Origin: Candidatus Omnitrophota bacterium
GTDB lineage: Bacteria; Omnitrophota; Gorgyraeia; Gygaellales; Profunditerraquicolaceae
Assembly: GCA_003598025.1 (NCBI GenBank)
Contig: QZKH01000006.1
Location: forward strand, 1 to 44,034
Length of the DNA: 44,034 nucleotides
Direction: 5' to 3'
A program made the translations under genes and the position numbers. The notes below the pieces were generated by a model that saw only the letters and a list, made by a program, of their open reading frames with translations, was not told the origin of the DNA and did not search any database. Below are positions 33,228-39,510 of the stretch, piece after piece (position 1 is the stretch's first letter; the number at the start of each line of letters is the position of its first letter).

Positions 33228-33231
33228 GAAA

Positions 33232-33324
33232 GTTACATGAGGTTAGTGATGTTGAATGACGTTACATGATGTTGCTTTTGCAACCCCCGGTAAACTTAAT
33301 TAACCTCACGTAATCCCATGTAAC
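33232..33324. repeat. palindromic intergenic element between glnA1 and the ANTAR gene
   Basis: GTTACATG (33232-33239) faces CATGTAAC (33317-33324), and TGAGGTTA (33238-33245) faces TAACCTCA (33301-33308). A central hairpin GTTGC-TTTT-GCAAC lies at 33271-33284. A further GTTACATG copy sits at 33261-33268. It looks like a miniature repeat built of short words, without protein. Confidence 0.65.
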
Positions 33325-33341
33325 ATAATAGATAACTTATA

Positions 33342-34070
33342 ATGAAAAATAAGGAAAACTACGAAGTTTACTTAAAGCATATACAGGCCCTTTCAAAAGT
33401 AGCAAGCTTAATTACTCAGGGGATGTATCTGGATGAGTTGCTGCGTTTAGTCGTTAATGTAACCGCAGAGATCATGAACTCCAAAATCTGTTCTCTTATG
33501 CTGTTAGACCCGGATAAGAATGAGCTGGTAGTCAGAGCAACGCAATCGATATCCGATGAATATAATAAAAAGCCAAACATAAAATTAGGCACTGGCATAG
33601 CAGGCGAGGTTGCAAAATATAATAAGCCTATACACATCCTTGATGTCAAGACAGACCCCAGGTATTTAAACAGGGACATAGCCAAGAAAGAAGGCCTATG
33701 TTCGTTGGCAAGCGTGCCCTTAGCGGTCAAGGGCAGGGTAATAGGCGTACTTAACTGTTACACCTCAAAAAAACACAAGTTCACTAAGCATGAAATAGAC
33801 CTGTTGATCACTTTGGCAAGCCAGGCAGCAGTGGCAATTGAGAACGCCGAACTAGACTTAAGAGCCAGGACCGCAGAAGAAGCCCTCACTACAAGAAAAC
33901 TTATAGAAAGGGCAAAAGATTTACTTTCTCAGGAGGCCAATATCCTTCCTTCAGAGGCCTATCGGCTTATACAAAAGCAAAGCATGGATAAACGTAAAAC
34001 TATGAGAGAAGTAGCCGAAGCAATAATAATGGCCAGTGAGTTGAAGGATAATAGAAAAAATAGTAGGTAG
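33342..34070 (+). CDS. GAF-ANTAR RNA-binding antiterminator
   Basis: A 242-residue soluble protein. Residues about 14-165 form a GAF sensor (LVVNVTAEIMNSKICSLMLL, GIAGEVAKYNKPI, SVPLAVKGRVIGVLNCY). A short coiled coil follows, and residues about 180-235 form an ANTAR domain (RKLIERAKDLLSQEANILPSEAYRLIQKQSMD then KTMREVAEAII). Established for the family: ANTAR domains bind paired hexaloop RNA hairpins and prevent terminator formation. Three such leaders occur within 5.5 kb downstream, upstream of nadE2, the amt operon and glnA2. It follows glnA1 after a repeat element. The GAF ligand is unknown; no receiver or haem motif is visible. Confidence 0.9.
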   Translation: MKNKENYEVYLKHIQALSKVASLITQGMYLDELLRLVVNVTAEIMNSKICSLMLLDPDKNELVVRATQSISDEYNKKPNIKLGTGIAGEVAKYNKPIHILDVKTDPRYLNRDIAKKEGLCSLASVPLAVKGRVIGVLNCYTSKKHKFTKHEIDLLITLASQAAVAIENAELDLRARTAEEALTTRKLIERAKDLLSQEANILPSEAYRLIQKQSMDKRKTMREVAEAIIMASELKDNRKNSR

Positions 34071-34079
34071 AATAAATTA

Positions 34080-34190
34080 GTTCATAGTTCATGGTTCATA
34101 GATATGGGGAGTAACTAGCCACAAGGACACAATAGCGCTTTACTCAATACGCAATACTCTATACGCACTACGCATATGAATATTGAACTA
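34080..34190. repeat. dispersed intergenic element, inverted partner of 29130-29260
   Basis: Three GTTCATA-type units (34080-34100) are followed by ATATGGGGAGTAACTAGCC, CACAAGGACACAA and ACGCAATACTCTATACGCAC. This order is the reverse complement of the element after phoU. It ends just before the nadE2 promoter. Confidence 0.75.
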
Positions 34191-34223: not shown

Positions 34224-34246
34224 TGTAATAAATACAGGGTAGTATT

Positions 34247-34310
34247 AAGACATTGAAGTCTTCTGCAAAAAAGCGGAAGGCTTTTTTATTTTAAAGACTA
34301 GGGCGTCTTT
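34247..34310 (+). promoter_or_regulatory. ANTAR-target-like hairpins in the nadE2 leader
   Basis: Hairpin P1 is AAGAC-[ATTGAA]-GTCTT (34247-34262), a hexaloop with A1 and G4. P2 is CTGC-[AAAAAA]-GCGG (34263-34276), A1 but A4. A third hexaloop stem, AAAGAC-[TAGGGC]-GTCTTT (34293-34310), has G4 but U1. P2 overlaps the terminator at 34267 and the third stem overlaps the terminator at 34303, so each pair is mutually exclusive. Confidence 0.7.
34267..34291 (+). terminator. attenuator terminator 1 in nadE2 leader
   Basis: AAAAAAGC-[GGAAG]-GCTTTTTT with the following T-rich run. It uses the loop and 3' arm of P2. Confidence 0.7.
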
Positions 34311-34342
34311 TATCAATTAGTGATAAAAGACGCATTTTTTTT
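34303..34342 (+). terminator. attenuator terminator 2 in nadE2 leader
   Basis: A 13-bp perfect stem (GCGTCTTTTATCA and TGATAAAAGACGC, loop ATTAG) followed by ATTTTTTTT, 25 bases before the nadE2 start. Confidence 0.9.
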
Positions 34343-36044: not shown

Positions 36045-36572
36045 ATGGATTTTTATGTTTTACTAAAGAGGATAGGCCCAACCTTAAAAATGATAACCTA
36101 TAAATTGAGCTGGCGTTATTCTTTCCTGGATCAAGACGATCTTTATCAGGAGGCAGCTATCCATCTTTGGTCGGATTTCCGTGCCAGAAAGTTAGATGAT
36201 AAAACAGACAGCTATATTCTTCAGGGGTGTTATTTTCACCTGAAAAATTACTTACGCAGATCGGAAAACAGGAGTTGTGCCATTAATATAGATTCTTTTC
36301 TTAACGATGATTCTCAAGGTAGCCAGGTTTACGAAAATACCCTGCTGGCTGATTATCGATTTAAGGAAGAAGTCGAGAAATTAAATAGTAAGCTGCTTGT
36401 AGAAACGATATTTAACAATGGGTTAACTAACAGAGAAAAAGAGGTTTTATGGCTATGTTTGGAAGATCTTAAGACAAGAGAGATCGGTAAACGCCTGAAT
36501 ATCTCGCATGTCAGCGTAGTCAAGATTATGAGTAAAATCAGAGAAAAATGCAGAAAACACCTTGAAGGTTGA
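36045..36572 (+). CDS. small sigma-70 family RNA polymerase sigma factor
   Basis: A 175-residue protein with a sigma region 2-like segment (about 22-85, SWRYSFLDQDDLYQEAAIHLW then YFHLKNYLRR) and a region 4-like helix-turn-helix (about 120-172, LTNREKEVLWLCLEDLKTREIGKRLNISHVSVVKI form). Regions 1.1 and 3 are absent, as in ECF or SigH-like factors. I chose the ATG at 36045, one base after the nadE2 stop, with AGAGGA just upstream; the in-frame start at 35997 lies within nadE2. No anti-sigma gene adjoins it. It is co-transcribed with nadE2, hence also under the ANTAR leader, and directly precedes the amt operon, a possible target. Confidence 0.78.
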   Translation: MDFYVLLKRIGPTLKMITYKLSWRYSFLDQDDLYQEAAIHLWSDFRARKLDDKTDSYILQGCYFHLKNYLRRSENRSCAINIDSFLNDDSQGSQVYENTLLADYRFKEEVEKLNSKLLVETIFNNGLTNREKEVLWLCLEDLKTREIGKRLNISHVSVVKIMSKIREKCRKHLEG

Positions 36573-36628
36573 TTGTTTTTGCTCCAGGAAGTTACCAAAA
36601 CCGGGATTTAATTACTTGTAAAGGTATA

Positions 36629-36659
36629 AACACATCGAAGTGTTAAGACAAAGGCGTTT
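36629..36659 (+). promoter_or_regulatory. ANTAR-target module 1 before the barrel-amtB-glnK operon
   Basis: P1 is AACAC-[ATCGAA]-GTGTT (36629-36644) and P2 is AGAC-[AAAGGC]-GTTT (36646-36659). Both hexaloops have A at 1 and G at 4, matching the ANTAR RNA motif closely. P2 uses bases of the terminator that follows. Confidence 0.8.
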
Positions 36660-36679
36660 CTTTAAGAAACGCCTTTTTT
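36650..36679 (+). terminator. attenuator terminator 1, amt leader
   Basis: AAAGGCGTTTC-[TTTAA]-GAAACGCCTTT followed by further T residues. It cannot form together with P2. Confidence 0.9.
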
Positions 36680-36716
36680 ATTATTTAGTAGAATATTTGT
36701 TTTATATCCAAAAATA

Positions 36717-36749
36717 AAGACAGAGGCGTCTTAATGTCCAAAAGCGGAT
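36717..36749 (+). promoter_or_regulatory. ANTAR-target module 2 before the barrel-amtB-glnK operon
   Basis: P1' is AAGAC-[AGAGGC]-GTCTT (36717-36732), A1 and G4. P2' is GTCC-[AAAAGC]-GGAT (36736-36749), A1 but A4. Two complete hairpin-hairpin-terminator modules thus stand in series. Confidence 0.7.
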
Positions 36750-36766
36750 TTTTAAGGCGCTTTTTT
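36740..36766 (+). terminator. attenuator terminator 2, amt leader
   Basis: AAAAGCG (36740-36746) pairs with CGCTTTT (36758-36764), loop of 11, followed by T residues. It overlaps P2'. Confidence 0.75.
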
Positions 36767-36797
36767 ATTTGCTGTTAAATGAGAGAGGAGAAAAACC

Positions 36798-37616
36798 ATG
36801 ATAAGATTTAGAATTCCAAAGTTCTTGATAAGCTCATTTATATCCGGGCTGTGCATCGTAAACTTTGCTTTTGCTACTCCGTCAACGCATATTTGGTCTC
36901 CCTCTACAGATATTCAGCCTTACAAAAAAATCCACATAACCGCTGATACGTATACTCCGACTACCGGCAAAGGGACCAATGCAGATAACTATGACCAGCA
37001 TACTTATGTCCAACAGGTTTATGGCCTGACTTTCAGCTTACTTTCGGATAAACAAGATGACAATGCTTTAGGCAGGATTTGGCAGCCGCTCGGTAAGGTC
37101 ATGGCTGAGACAGGGTTTGACTATAAAAAAGGTTTCGGCTCTTTCTATGATTCAACTCCCTGGTATTTTCATTTCAAGTTTGGCATCCCGGAGGGAGCAT
37201 ATTTTAAGGATATGCCTGCTTTTGCCATCGGAGGATATGATTTAGGGACGAAGACTAACAGGACAAATTATAATATTTGGTATTTTAAGGGCGCTAAAAG
37301 CTTTAACTTAGGCGGTTTAGACTTAGGGAGGTTTTCCGCCGGATATTTCAATGGTAATAAGAAACTACTGCTTGATAAAAACGGAAAGCGCGATAATGAC
37401 GGGATAATGCTTGCCTGGGAACGCACTATGCATGAGATATCCGATAAGCTTTGGCTTTGCGTTGATTACCAGGGGACACAGTCTTCTTACGGCGCGCTTA
37501 ATTTCGGTTTTGCCTGGAAATTCAGTAATAATGTTTCCGCAATAATAGGATATGACATATATAACAATCATAACAGCACGGATACGGTGACTTTCCAGCT
37601 GGATATTGATTTCTAA
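36798..37616 (+). CDS. predicted outer-membrane beta-barrel protein of the ammonium operon
   Basis: A 272-residue protein I do not recognise by family. A signal peptide (about 1-26, ending AFA-TP) is followed by alternating polar and aromatic strands, for example WYFHFKFGIP, NYNIWYFKGAKSFNL and SSYGALNFGFAWKFSNN, and it ends FQLDIDF with a terminal Phe, as outer-membrane barrels do. GAGGAG precedes the ATG. It leads the operon barrel-amtB-glnK behind a double ANTAR leader. A porin that lets ammonium or small nitrogen compounds into the periplasm would fit, but this is position-based. The phosphate operon has the same layout with a DUF2490-like barrel first. Confidence 0.7.
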   Translation: MIRFRIPKFLISSFISGLCIVNFAFATPSTHIWSPSTDIQPYKKIHITADTYTPTTGKGTNADNYDQHTYVQQVYGLTFSLLSDKQDDNALGRIWQPLGKVMAETGFDYKKGFGSFYDSTPWYFHFKFGIPEGAYFKDMPAFAIGGYDLGTKTNRTNYNIWYFKGAKSFNLGGLDLGRFSAGYFNGNKKLLLDKNGKRDNDGIMLAWERTMHEISDKLWLCVDYQGTQSSYGALNFGFAWKFSNNVSAIIGYDIYNNHNSTDTVTFQLDIDF

Positions 37617-37631
37617 AAGGAGGGGCAAAAT

Positions 37632-38957
37632 ATGGATACAAAAGTTGTCTTGGATACAATATGGGTTTTGATAACAGCCATGCTGGTATTTTTCATGAAT
37701 CTAGGTTTTGCAATGGTAGAGTCAGGTTTTGCCAGGGTAAAAAACTGTGTTAATATTTTGTCTAAAAACTTTGTTGTTTTTGCTGTTTCTTCACTCGGGT
37801 TCTTTTTAATAGGCTGGGGTTTAATGTTCGGAGACGGAAATCCGGCCGTTGGACTAAAGGGCCTTTTGTTTTTGAACGGGCTGGATAATTCTCCGGCTGT
37901 CGGAGAGGCTTATAAGGGTGTCTATTCAGCTATATCCTGGACAGGGGTCCCTCTTTTGGCTAAATTTTTCTTCCAGCTTGTCTTTTGCGGCACAGCAGCA
38001 ACTATAGTTTCAGGGGCGGTTGCAGAAAGGATAAAATACAAATCATTCATATTGTTCACATTTATCATGGCGACGTTTATATATCCTATTGTAGGGCATT
38101 GGATTTGGGGTGGAGGATGGCTCGCTTTAAAGGGCATGTTTGATTTTGCCGGCTCAACAGTAGTCCACTCTGTCGGCGGATGGGCGGCATTAGCAGGGGT
38201 TTTGGTTTTAGGGCCGCGTTTCGGTAAATATAATAACGGAAAAATTAACCCTATCCCGGGACATAACTTATCGTTGGCAACATTAGGGGCTTTTGTTTTA
38301 TGGTTTGGATGGTTCGGTTTTAACCCCGGCTCTACCATGGCTGCAGATCCTGCGGCAATAAGCCATGTTGTCGTTACAACCAATATGTCCGCTGCTGCAG
38401 CGATAATGAGTTCGATTGTGCTCTCTTGGGTATTGTTGGGCAAGCCCGATTTAGGTATGACTATCAACGGTTGTCTTGCCGGCTTAGTTGCGATTACTGC
38501 TCCTTGTGCATTCGTCAGCATTGTAAGTTCAATTATCATAGGTTTAATCGCCGGTGCCCTGGTAGTATTGGCAGTAATATTTTTCGACAGAGCCAGAATC
38601 GATGATCCGGTTGGCGCCTTATCCGTACATTTAGTCAACGGCATCTTTGGGACATTAAGCGTTGGATTATTTGCTCAGGATAAAATCGCAGGCATAAATA
38701 CCGGTAATGGTTTATTCTATGGCGGCGGAACAAAGCTGCTTATGTCTCAGTTCTCCGGAGTAATAAGCGTTGGTATTTATACTTTTGTTTTATCTCTGAT
38801 TGCATGGAAGCTTATAAAAGCTAGTATCGGGATAAGGGTAAGTCTATATGAGGAGATCGAAGGGCTTGATATCGGTGAACACGGCAACTCTGCGTATCCG
38901 GAGTTCTTAGGGAGAAAACCGACATACTCATTCCTCGGGATATCGGATAAAGAATAA
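37632..38957 (+). CDS. amtB: ammonium transporter AmtB
   Basis: A 441-residue inner-membrane channel with about eleven helices and no cleaved signal. Family marks are NLGFAMVESGFARVKNC, FFQLVFCGTAATIVSGAVAER, the first pore His in GSTVVHSVGGWAAL, FGWFGFNPGS, and the second pore His in GALSVHLVNGIFGT. AGGAGG lies before the ATG, 15 bases after the barrel gene. GlnK, its usual partner and plug, is encoded next. The cytoplasmic tail (about 400-441) is available for GlnK contact. Confidence 0.96.
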   Translation: MDTKVVLDTIWVLITAMLVFFMNLGFAMVESGFARVKNCVNILSKNFVVFAVSSLGFFLIGWGLMFGDGNPAVGLKGLLFLNGLDNSPAVGEAYKGVYSAISWTGVPLLAKFFFQLVFCGTAATIVSGAVAERIKYKSFILFTFIMATFIYPIVGHWIWGGGWLALKGMFDFAGSTVVHSVGGWAALAGVLVLGPRFGKYNNGKINPIPGHNLSLATLGAFVLWFGWFGFNPGSTMAADPAAISHVVVTTNMSAAAAIMSSIVLSWVLLGKPDLGMTINGCLAGLVAITAPCAFVSIVSSIIIGLIAGALVVLAVIFFDRARIDDPVGALSVHLVNGIFGTLSVGLFAQDKIAGINTGNGLFYGGGTKLLMSQFSGVISVGIYTFVLSLIAWKLIKASIGIRVSLYEEIEGLDIGEHGNSAYPEFLGRKPTYSFLGISDKE

Positions 38958-38982
38958 TTCATTGCAATTACAGGAGGTATAT

Positions 38983-39321
38983 ATGAAAAAGATAGAAGTT
39001 ATTATAAGGCCGGAGAAGTTAGAAGTTGTGCGCCGAGCTCTACAAAACGAAGGGTGCGCTGGGTTGATGATCAGCGAGATAGAAGGGCACGGTAAACAAA
39101 AAGGCATAGTGCAGCAATGGAGAGGCGAAAAATACAGGGTTGAATTGCTGCCGAAGGTTAAAATAGAAGCTGTAGTTAAAGATGGGCAGGTAGATTCGAT
39201 AATTAAAGTTATTATTGATAATGCAAAAACCGGAGAAATAGGCGATGGCAAGATCTTTATTTATAATATCGAAAATGCCATAAGGATTAGGACCGGTGAG
39301 GCGGGCGAGGGCGCATTATAA
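38983..39321 (+). CDS. glnK: nitrogen regulatory protein PII (GlnK)
   Basis: A 112-residue PII trimer subunit. The T-loop has Tyr51 in GEKYRVELLPK, the residue uridylylated in proteobacteria, while position 46 is Trp rather than Tyr (QQWRG). The B-loop TGEIGDGKIF and C-terminal IRIRTGE bind ATP/ADP and 2-oxoglutarate. I chose the ATG at 38983 with CAGGAGG upstream; the in-frame start at 38962 gives an extension unknown in the family. It should control AmtB and perhaps a glutamine synthetase. No GlnD is in the window, so modification of Tyr51 is unproven. Confidence 0.95.
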   Translation: MKKIEVIIRPEKLEVVRRALQNEGCAGLMISEIEGHGKQKGIVQQWRGEKYRVELLPKVKIEAVVKDGQVDSIIKVIIDNAKTGEIGDGKIFIYNIENAIRIRTGEAGEGAL

Positions 39322-39409
39322 TAAATGGGTTATTTCGGTGTTTAAAAAACTAAAAAACAGGTTACCAGAAGGAGGTTATTTTTACTTGTATATATAAGCA
39401 TAAAATTTA

Positions 39410-39462
39410 GGCACAAAGCAGTGCTAAAATAGGCAATAAATTAAAAGGACACAGGCGTTCCT
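39410..39462 (+). promoter_or_regulatory. ANTAR-target hairpins in the glnA2 leader
   Basis: P1 is GGCAC-[AAAGCA]-GTGCT (39410-39425). P2 is AGGAC-[ACAGGC]-GTTCCT with one bulged T (39446-39462). Both hexaloops have A1 and G4. A 20-base linker separates them. P2 overlaps the terminator at 39453. Confidence 0.8.
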
Positions 39463-39485
39463 GATTTAAGGGGGCGCCTTTTTTT
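39453..39485 (+). terminator. attenuator terminator in glnA2 leader
   Basis: AGGCGTTCCT pairs with the G-rich arm ending GCGCCT (39470-39479), loop GATTTAA, then a run of T (39479-39485), 25 bases before glnA2. Confidence 0.85.
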
Positions 39486-39510
39486 ATTTAATGCGAAAGG
39501 GAGGGCTAAA

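Follow-up and report, generated by a model that had tools for sequence, protein, structure and literature searches.

The DNA analysed here (hereafter, the window) is a stretch of 44,034 nucleotides from a Candidatus Omnitrophota bacterium (contig QZKH01000006.1), in which an operon encoding a putative outer-membrane protein (porin), the ammonium transporter Amt and the PII protein is preceded by a leader with two terminators. The preliminary description of this DNA holds that the leader contains two complete ANTAR modules in tandem, each consisting of P1, P2 and a terminator. The question raised by this locus, then, is whether the second attenuator repeats the first one and, if not, how an ANTAR protein could act on it. 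The leader occupies the region between the end of an ECF-like sigma factor gene (36572) and the start of the operon (36798), and includes the following features.

36045..36572, + strand: ECF-like sigma factor gene, directly 5' of the amt leader (Sigma70_r2 and Sigma70_r4)
36592..36620, + strand: promoter-like motif TTACCA-N15-TACTTGTA, exact 29-nt form, with the same spacing recurring across the phylum
36629..36644, + strand: P1 (recruitment) hairpin of module 1, AACAC[ATCGAA]GTGTT, loop with A1 and G4, 5-bp stem
36646..36659, + strand: P2 (antitermination) hairpin of module 1, AGAC[AAAGGC]GTTT, 4-bp stem, overlapping T1
36650..36679, + strand: terminator T1 with U-run, predicted fold about -15 kcal/mol
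36717..36732, + strand: P2' hairpin of the second unit, AAGAC[AGAGGC]GTCTT, without a P1 of its own
36723..36767, + strand: terminator T2 with U-run, predicted fold about -19 kcal/mol
36736..36749, + strand: apex hairpin of T2, GTCC[AAAAGC]GGAT, the "second P2" of the preliminary description
36798..39321, + strand: controlled operon, putative outer-membrane protein, Amt and PII (Pfam)

The first attenuator is straightforward. Both hairpins of module 1 have six-base loops with A at position 1 and G at position 4 and stems of at least 3 bp, and P2 overlaps an intrinsic terminator: T1 comprises 12 bp starting inside the P2 loop, so that P2 and T1 are incompatible in the predicted folds. The fold of the module (36629-36679) beats those of all 200 dinucleotide shuffles (z -6.3). 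Thus, as far as can be judged from the sequence, module 1 is a canonical ANTAR target, with hexaloop hairpins P1 and P2 and with P2 overlapping the terminator. It shares with the targets of EutV, NasR and AmiR (Ramesh 2012, PMC3369931) the two A1/G4 hexaloops and the placement of P2 over the terminator, and, as in those systems, an ANTAR protein is encoded in the genome and the genes involved are nitrogen-related. The P1-P2 linker is 0-1 nt in the double leaders of the window (1-2 nt for module 1) and spans 4-8 nt in many amt leaders from relatives, compared to 5-12 nt in the eut leaders of Enterococcus faecalis (PMC3369931) and the 2-25 nt accepted in actinobacteria (PMC8164766). A search of Rfam at gathering thresholds yields zero matches, so the ANTAR assignment is based on loop anatomy and comparison; the porin-like protein of the operon, likewise, has no match in Pfam. 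The promoter-like motif predicts a transcription start at about 36627, just 5' of P1. The motif TTACCA-N15-TACTTGTA has three matches in the genome versus none for the reversed control, and the exact 29-nt form is found in the amt and glnA leaders (36592-36620 and 39362-39390). The third match (C9:8323) is 30 nt in total and was set aside; it resembles coding sequence given that it lies within open frames and that near-identical 30-nt matches recur in relatives.

The second unit is built differently. T2 is formed by GAGGCGTCTTAA paired with TTAAGGCGCTTT, and its 5' arm consists of the loop and the 3' strand of the hairpin AAGAC[AGAGGC]GTCTT, so this hairpin and T2 are mutually exclusive, like P2 and T1 in module 1. 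Because it supplies the 5' arm of the terminator, this hairpin holds the position of P2, hence the designation P2'. The AAAAGC hairpin is the top of T2 and, in the predicted folds, can form in either state. The fold of this unit (36717-36767), too, beats those of all 200 dinucleotide shuffles (z -5.0). No P1 for the second unit was found between T1 and P2' in the window or in the other strictly defined double leaders described below; the nearest upstream hairpin in the window, TTTT[ATATCC]AAAA, consists entirely of A-T pairs and has T at loop position 4. Thus, the two terminators and four hexaloop hairpins of the preliminary description are all where it placed them, and loop anatomy, folds and relatives bear out two ANTAR-type attenuators in series before the porin-amt-PII operon. 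The P1-P2-terminator description, however, holds for the first copy but is wrong for the second, which is a single hexaloop with G4 and at least three closing pairs that competes with a terminator and lacks a P1. The pairing of AGAGGC with AAAAGC as P1 and P2 was rejected because T2 overlaps the AGAGGC hairpin and most relatives have something other than a G4 hexaloop at the apex; the AAAAGC hairpin, described previously as a weak second P2, is actually the apex of T2.

Starting from the promoter-like motif, 119 distinct Omnitrophota leaders were identified, two of them from the window. The related genomes are mostly metagenome assemblies, and the relatives are not independent. An automatic terminator scan misassigned some first units with a 3-bp P2; P2-anchored scans and reading by eye were used, and several of the leader counts rest on the latter. 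In the strict scan, a second unit of P2 and terminator is present in 19 of the 83 leaders that have a first one, and none appears in 20 sets of 83 shuffled stretches following T1; reading by eye raises the number of double leaders to 34, from 32 genomes with six family labels in two classes. The second attenuator is thus conserved, contrary to the outcome that the preliminary description named as a refutation. Among the strict double leaders, P1 precedes the first unit in all 19 and the second unit in none, and the gap available before the second unit is sometimes just 9-12 nt. Doubling marks uptake operons and, within the fetched leaders, is found almost only there: 19 of the 62 uptake leaders versus 0 of the 40 glutamine synthetase/glutamate synthase leaders in the strict scan (p 3e-5), and 32 of 62 versus 1 of 40 by eye. 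Several of these leaders show peculiarities of their own. In L015, L018 and L039, palindromic insertions (e.g., GGCGAATCCGCCACGG...CGGAG) separate T1 from P2', with both attenuators intact, and the T2 loop of L009 and L192 contains a long GC-rich palindrome. In L214 (313-2127, + strand), a double ANTAR leader precedes the gene of an amino-acid transporter-like protein apparently fused to a PII-like C-terminal domain.

The search pattern already included G4 for most of the second units, and a pattern-free scan served as a check. When no loop letters are assumed, the hairpins that overlap the 5' arm of a terminator include 114 with six-base loops, 9 with five-base loops and 18 with seven-base loops; those with four-base (50) and eight-base (56) loops probably for the most part repeat these hairpins, drawn with one base pair added or removed. 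G4 is present in 106 of the 114 six-base loops, and the closing pairs are mostly C-G followed by A-T. Given that the pattern-free scan recovers six-base G4 loops, the ANTAR reading is independent of the pattern employed in the preliminary description.

Alternatively, as in the pairing of the preliminary description, the second unit could be a complete dual-hexaloop module whose order is permuted, with P2' first, the T2 apex second and both bound by the ANTAR protein. In favor of this arrangement, a six-base loop closed by G-C pairs can be drawn by eye for 13 T2 apexes of the amt type, 10 of them with G4 (binomial p 1e-4 against 25%, with the selection made after the pattern had been seen and relatedness uncorrected). 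Most of the T2 apexes, however, have loops of other sizes, the sigma-type apexes show no G4 trend, the apex in the window has A at loop position 4, and there is no competition between apex and terminator. A permuted module accordingly appears unlikely, and the G4 hexaloop at the T2 apex is a lead rather than a finding.

P2' itself retains a 4-bp stem, in which 97.9% of the cells are paired, compared to 36-55% when the stem is slid, and changes on both sides of the stem occur in 12 cells, a number that none of 500 shuffles reaches. This covariation amounts to few events because a main part of it comes from a single A-U/G-C difference that separates amt-type from sigma-type units (the latter belong to leaders of the sigma factor gene, see below). 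A MAFFT alignment of the whole P2'-T2 units has misaligned 3' arms, and the covariation derived from it was disregarded. These data bear on the possibility that T2 is an unregulated fail-safe terminator, with P2' being a by-product or tuning the strength of T2 by folding first. Fail-safe terminators in series are common, and the strict cases uniformly lack a P1 before P2'. Nevertheless, the 5' strand of P2' lies outside T2 and still is paired with compensatory changes, the hairpin retains an ANTAR-type loop, and relieving T1 would achieve nothing if T2 were permanently on. On balance, a fail-safe role of T2 seems improbable.

Position 1 of the P2' loop varies: amt-type leaders mostly have A or G there, sigma-type leaders have U, and the window has A. 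In this respect, the Omnitrophota leaders, where G or U can also occupy position 1, differ from the targets of EutV, NasR and AmiR (PMC3369931). Such variation could indicate that P2' is targeted by another regulator, which would either bind RNA or recognize the palindrome AAGACGCAGGCGTCTT in the DNA. At this position, the loops of P2' (G or T) depart from those of the first units, and the GCAGGC form is a near-perfect DNA palindrome. However, the palindrome is broken in many P2' loops that keep six bases and G4, namely AGAGGC, the form in the window, as well as ATAGGC and TAAGGC, and first-unit P2 loops also have G1 in 20 of the 83 leaders. Furthermore, in L150, L176 and L209, P1 is directly followed by a P2'-T2-like unit, as if the two types of P2 were interchangeable. 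We consider a distinct regulator very unlikely. In the EutV-RNA structure, G4 stacks on Tyr164 and A1 has no specific protein contact (PMC8934654), so the variation at position 1 is compatible with binding by an ANTAR protein.

The genome encodes a candidate for this role, with a single ANTAR match, in a gene that adjoins the operons:

33342..34070, + strand: GAF-ANTAR protein, the proposed antiterminator (Pfam ANTAR, 3.9e-17)

The residues of this protein aligned with the RNA contacts R142, K143, K149, Y164 and M172 of EutV are all kept; K147 of EutV is replaced by R and E160 by P. Genes for ANTAR proteins 76-79% identical to this one are also found on contigs labelled Planctomycetales (L006) and Desulfobacterales (L073), both of which are probably mis-binned. 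On both sides of the ANTAR gene in the window (33228-33330 and 34071-34180), there are short near-repeats (GTTACATGA/ATGTAAC; TTCATAGTTCATGGTTCATAG; ACGCAATACTCTATACGCACTACGC).

Two further leaders in the window contain ANTAR-type hairpins.

34231..34342, + strand: nadE/sigma leader, P1-P2-T1-P2'-T2 layout, shared by relatives
34231-34246, + strand: P1 of this leader, AATAC[AGGGTA]GTATT
34247-34262, + strand: P2 of this leader, AAGAC[ATTGAA]GTCTT, with T1 extending to about 34287
34293-34310, + strand: P2' of this leader, AAAGAC[TAGGGC]GTCTTT
about 34303-34342, + strand: T2 of this leader
39410..39486, + strand: glnA leader, single module with terminator
39410-39425, + strand: P1 of the glnA leader, GGCAC[AAAGCA]GTGCT
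39447-39460, + strand: P2 of the glnA leader, GGAC[ACAGGC]GTTC

The leader of the sigma factor gene is also double in most relatives, where the nadE-type double leader, with the P2' loop UAAGGC, lies directly 5' of that gene; in the window, the same leader precedes nadE. In the glnA leader, the P1-P2 linker is 21 nt, and linkers of 13-27 nt, longer than those of the eut leaders, are seen in many related glnA/gltB leaders. Seven leaders (L184, L194, L196, L201, L203, L216.1 and L228, all with one genus label, g4) contain only P2: about 10 nt at most separate the promoter motif from the P2-terminator unit, leaving no room for P1. The gene downstream of one of these (L203) encodes a glutamine synthetase III-type protein. 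Along with the three leaders in which P1 directly precedes a P2'-like unit, these arrangements suggest that P1 is helpful in these leaders without being essential and that the two types of P2 are interchangeable.

The anatomy of the leader, its conservation, the mutual exclusivity of the hairpins and terminators in the predicted folds and the presence of a single ANTAR gene are all compatible with the hypothesis, which we consider probable, that the amt leader is a double ANTAR attenuator, with one recruitment and two antitermination hairpins (P1-P2-T1-P2'-T2), read by the GAF-ANTAR protein. From these observations we infer the following mode of action. When nitrogen is sufficient, the GAF-ANTAR protein would be inactive, T1 would form and most transcripts would stop there, with T2 stopping those that leak past T1. 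The active protein, probably under nitrogen limitation, would be recruited at P1 and would stabilize P2, thus blocking T1; the same dimer, by hand-over, or a second one would then stabilize the lone hexaloop P2' and block T2, allowing the porin-amt-PII operon to be read. Because read-through would need two successive binding events, basal leakage would be the product of the leakages of both terminators, provided that the terminators work independently; the tighter repression and sharper response proposed in the preliminary description are conjectural. The existence of the P2-only leaders supports this explanation. Several points argue against it. Many relatives have G or U at position 1 of the P2' loop, and the GCAGGC form could close to a smaller loop via a G-C pair. 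Furthermore, antitermination by EutV required P1 and was lost when the linker was extended by 20 nt (PMC8934654), whereas P2' is located about 72 nt after P1.

The sigma factor adds another layer to the circuit. All 14 members of the sigma family match Sigma70_r2 and Sigma70_r4 at E values up to 1, the best being 1.7e-6 and 4.5e-5; several matches are below the curated cut-offs, and the protein shows weak PDB similarity to FliA and SigH. Regions 2 and 4 typical of an ECF-type factor are thus recognizable, on weak matches. Relatives of this protein are present in 50 of the 56 genomes with the exact-spaced motif versus 32 of the 229 without it, among 285 genomes of the phylum (p 4e-27 by a hand tally uncorrected for relatedness); by hand tally, ANTAR genes are present in 53 of the same 56. 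The spacing of the motif is near-fixed, and many genomes carry 2-4 copies, mostly 5' of nitrogen genes. As in ECF-type systems, a product with regions 2 and 4 is encoded upstream of a motif with fixed spacing; in contrast to those systems, the similarity is weak, and protein and motif are linked by co-occurrence only. The sigma gene's own leader combines, by eye, a sigma-70-type promoter with the double ANTAR layout. This is suggestive of a cascade, with ANTAR antitermination controlling first the sigma factor and then the targets of the sigma factor. The chances appear evenly balanced that the nitrogen regulon of Omnitrophota relies on the sigma factor and the ANTAR protein in series, with the sigma factor opening the TTACCA-N15-TACTTGTA promoters and a lone hexaloop being sufficient for antitermination. 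If so, the sigma gene would itself lie behind P1-P2-T1-P2'-T2, and each sigma-driven transcript would meet ANTAR attenuators again.

The closest precedents come from work on EutV. The single-hexaloop ANTAR motif proposed from the EutV-RNA structure (PMC8934654) agrees with P2' in that one G4 hexaloop is the minimal target; here, by contrast, the lone hexaloop competes directly with a terminator, follows a full module in series and recurs phylum-wide. An extra single hexaloop is present in EutX RNA, EutV binds isolated single hexaloops, and a dimer has been proposed to be recruited at P1 and then passed on to P2 (PMC8934654). The best account of the Omnitrophota leaders would extend this successive-binding model. 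Unlike the EutV, NasR and AmiR leaders (PMC3369931), these leaders harbor a second attenuator without P1. They share with tandem riboswitches (reviewed in PMC9481103) two serial control elements in one leader, for which multiplied repression is the natural expectation, but would be controlled by a protein rather than a metabolite, and the recognition element of the second unit is reduced. Among the results listed in a search of the openly licensed literature, there were no earlier ANTAR leaders with serial terminators.

Two explanations of the need for two hairpins in ANTAR targets have been considered, simultaneous binding of a dimer and recruitment at P1 followed by transfer, and bioinformatic analysis of single hexaloops has been called for (PMC8934654). 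The natural P1-P2-T1-P2'-T2 series and the P2-only leaders, within one regulon, are ready-made RNAs that separate these models. If the proposed regulon is real, a lone hexaloop would be enough, either by hand-over of the P1-recruited dimer or directly, as in the P2-only leaders, and the recruitment-hairpin model would be settled. For the Omnitrophota, which were described in 2023 without any isolate (PMC10066038), these observations indicate a layered nitrogen-control circuit.
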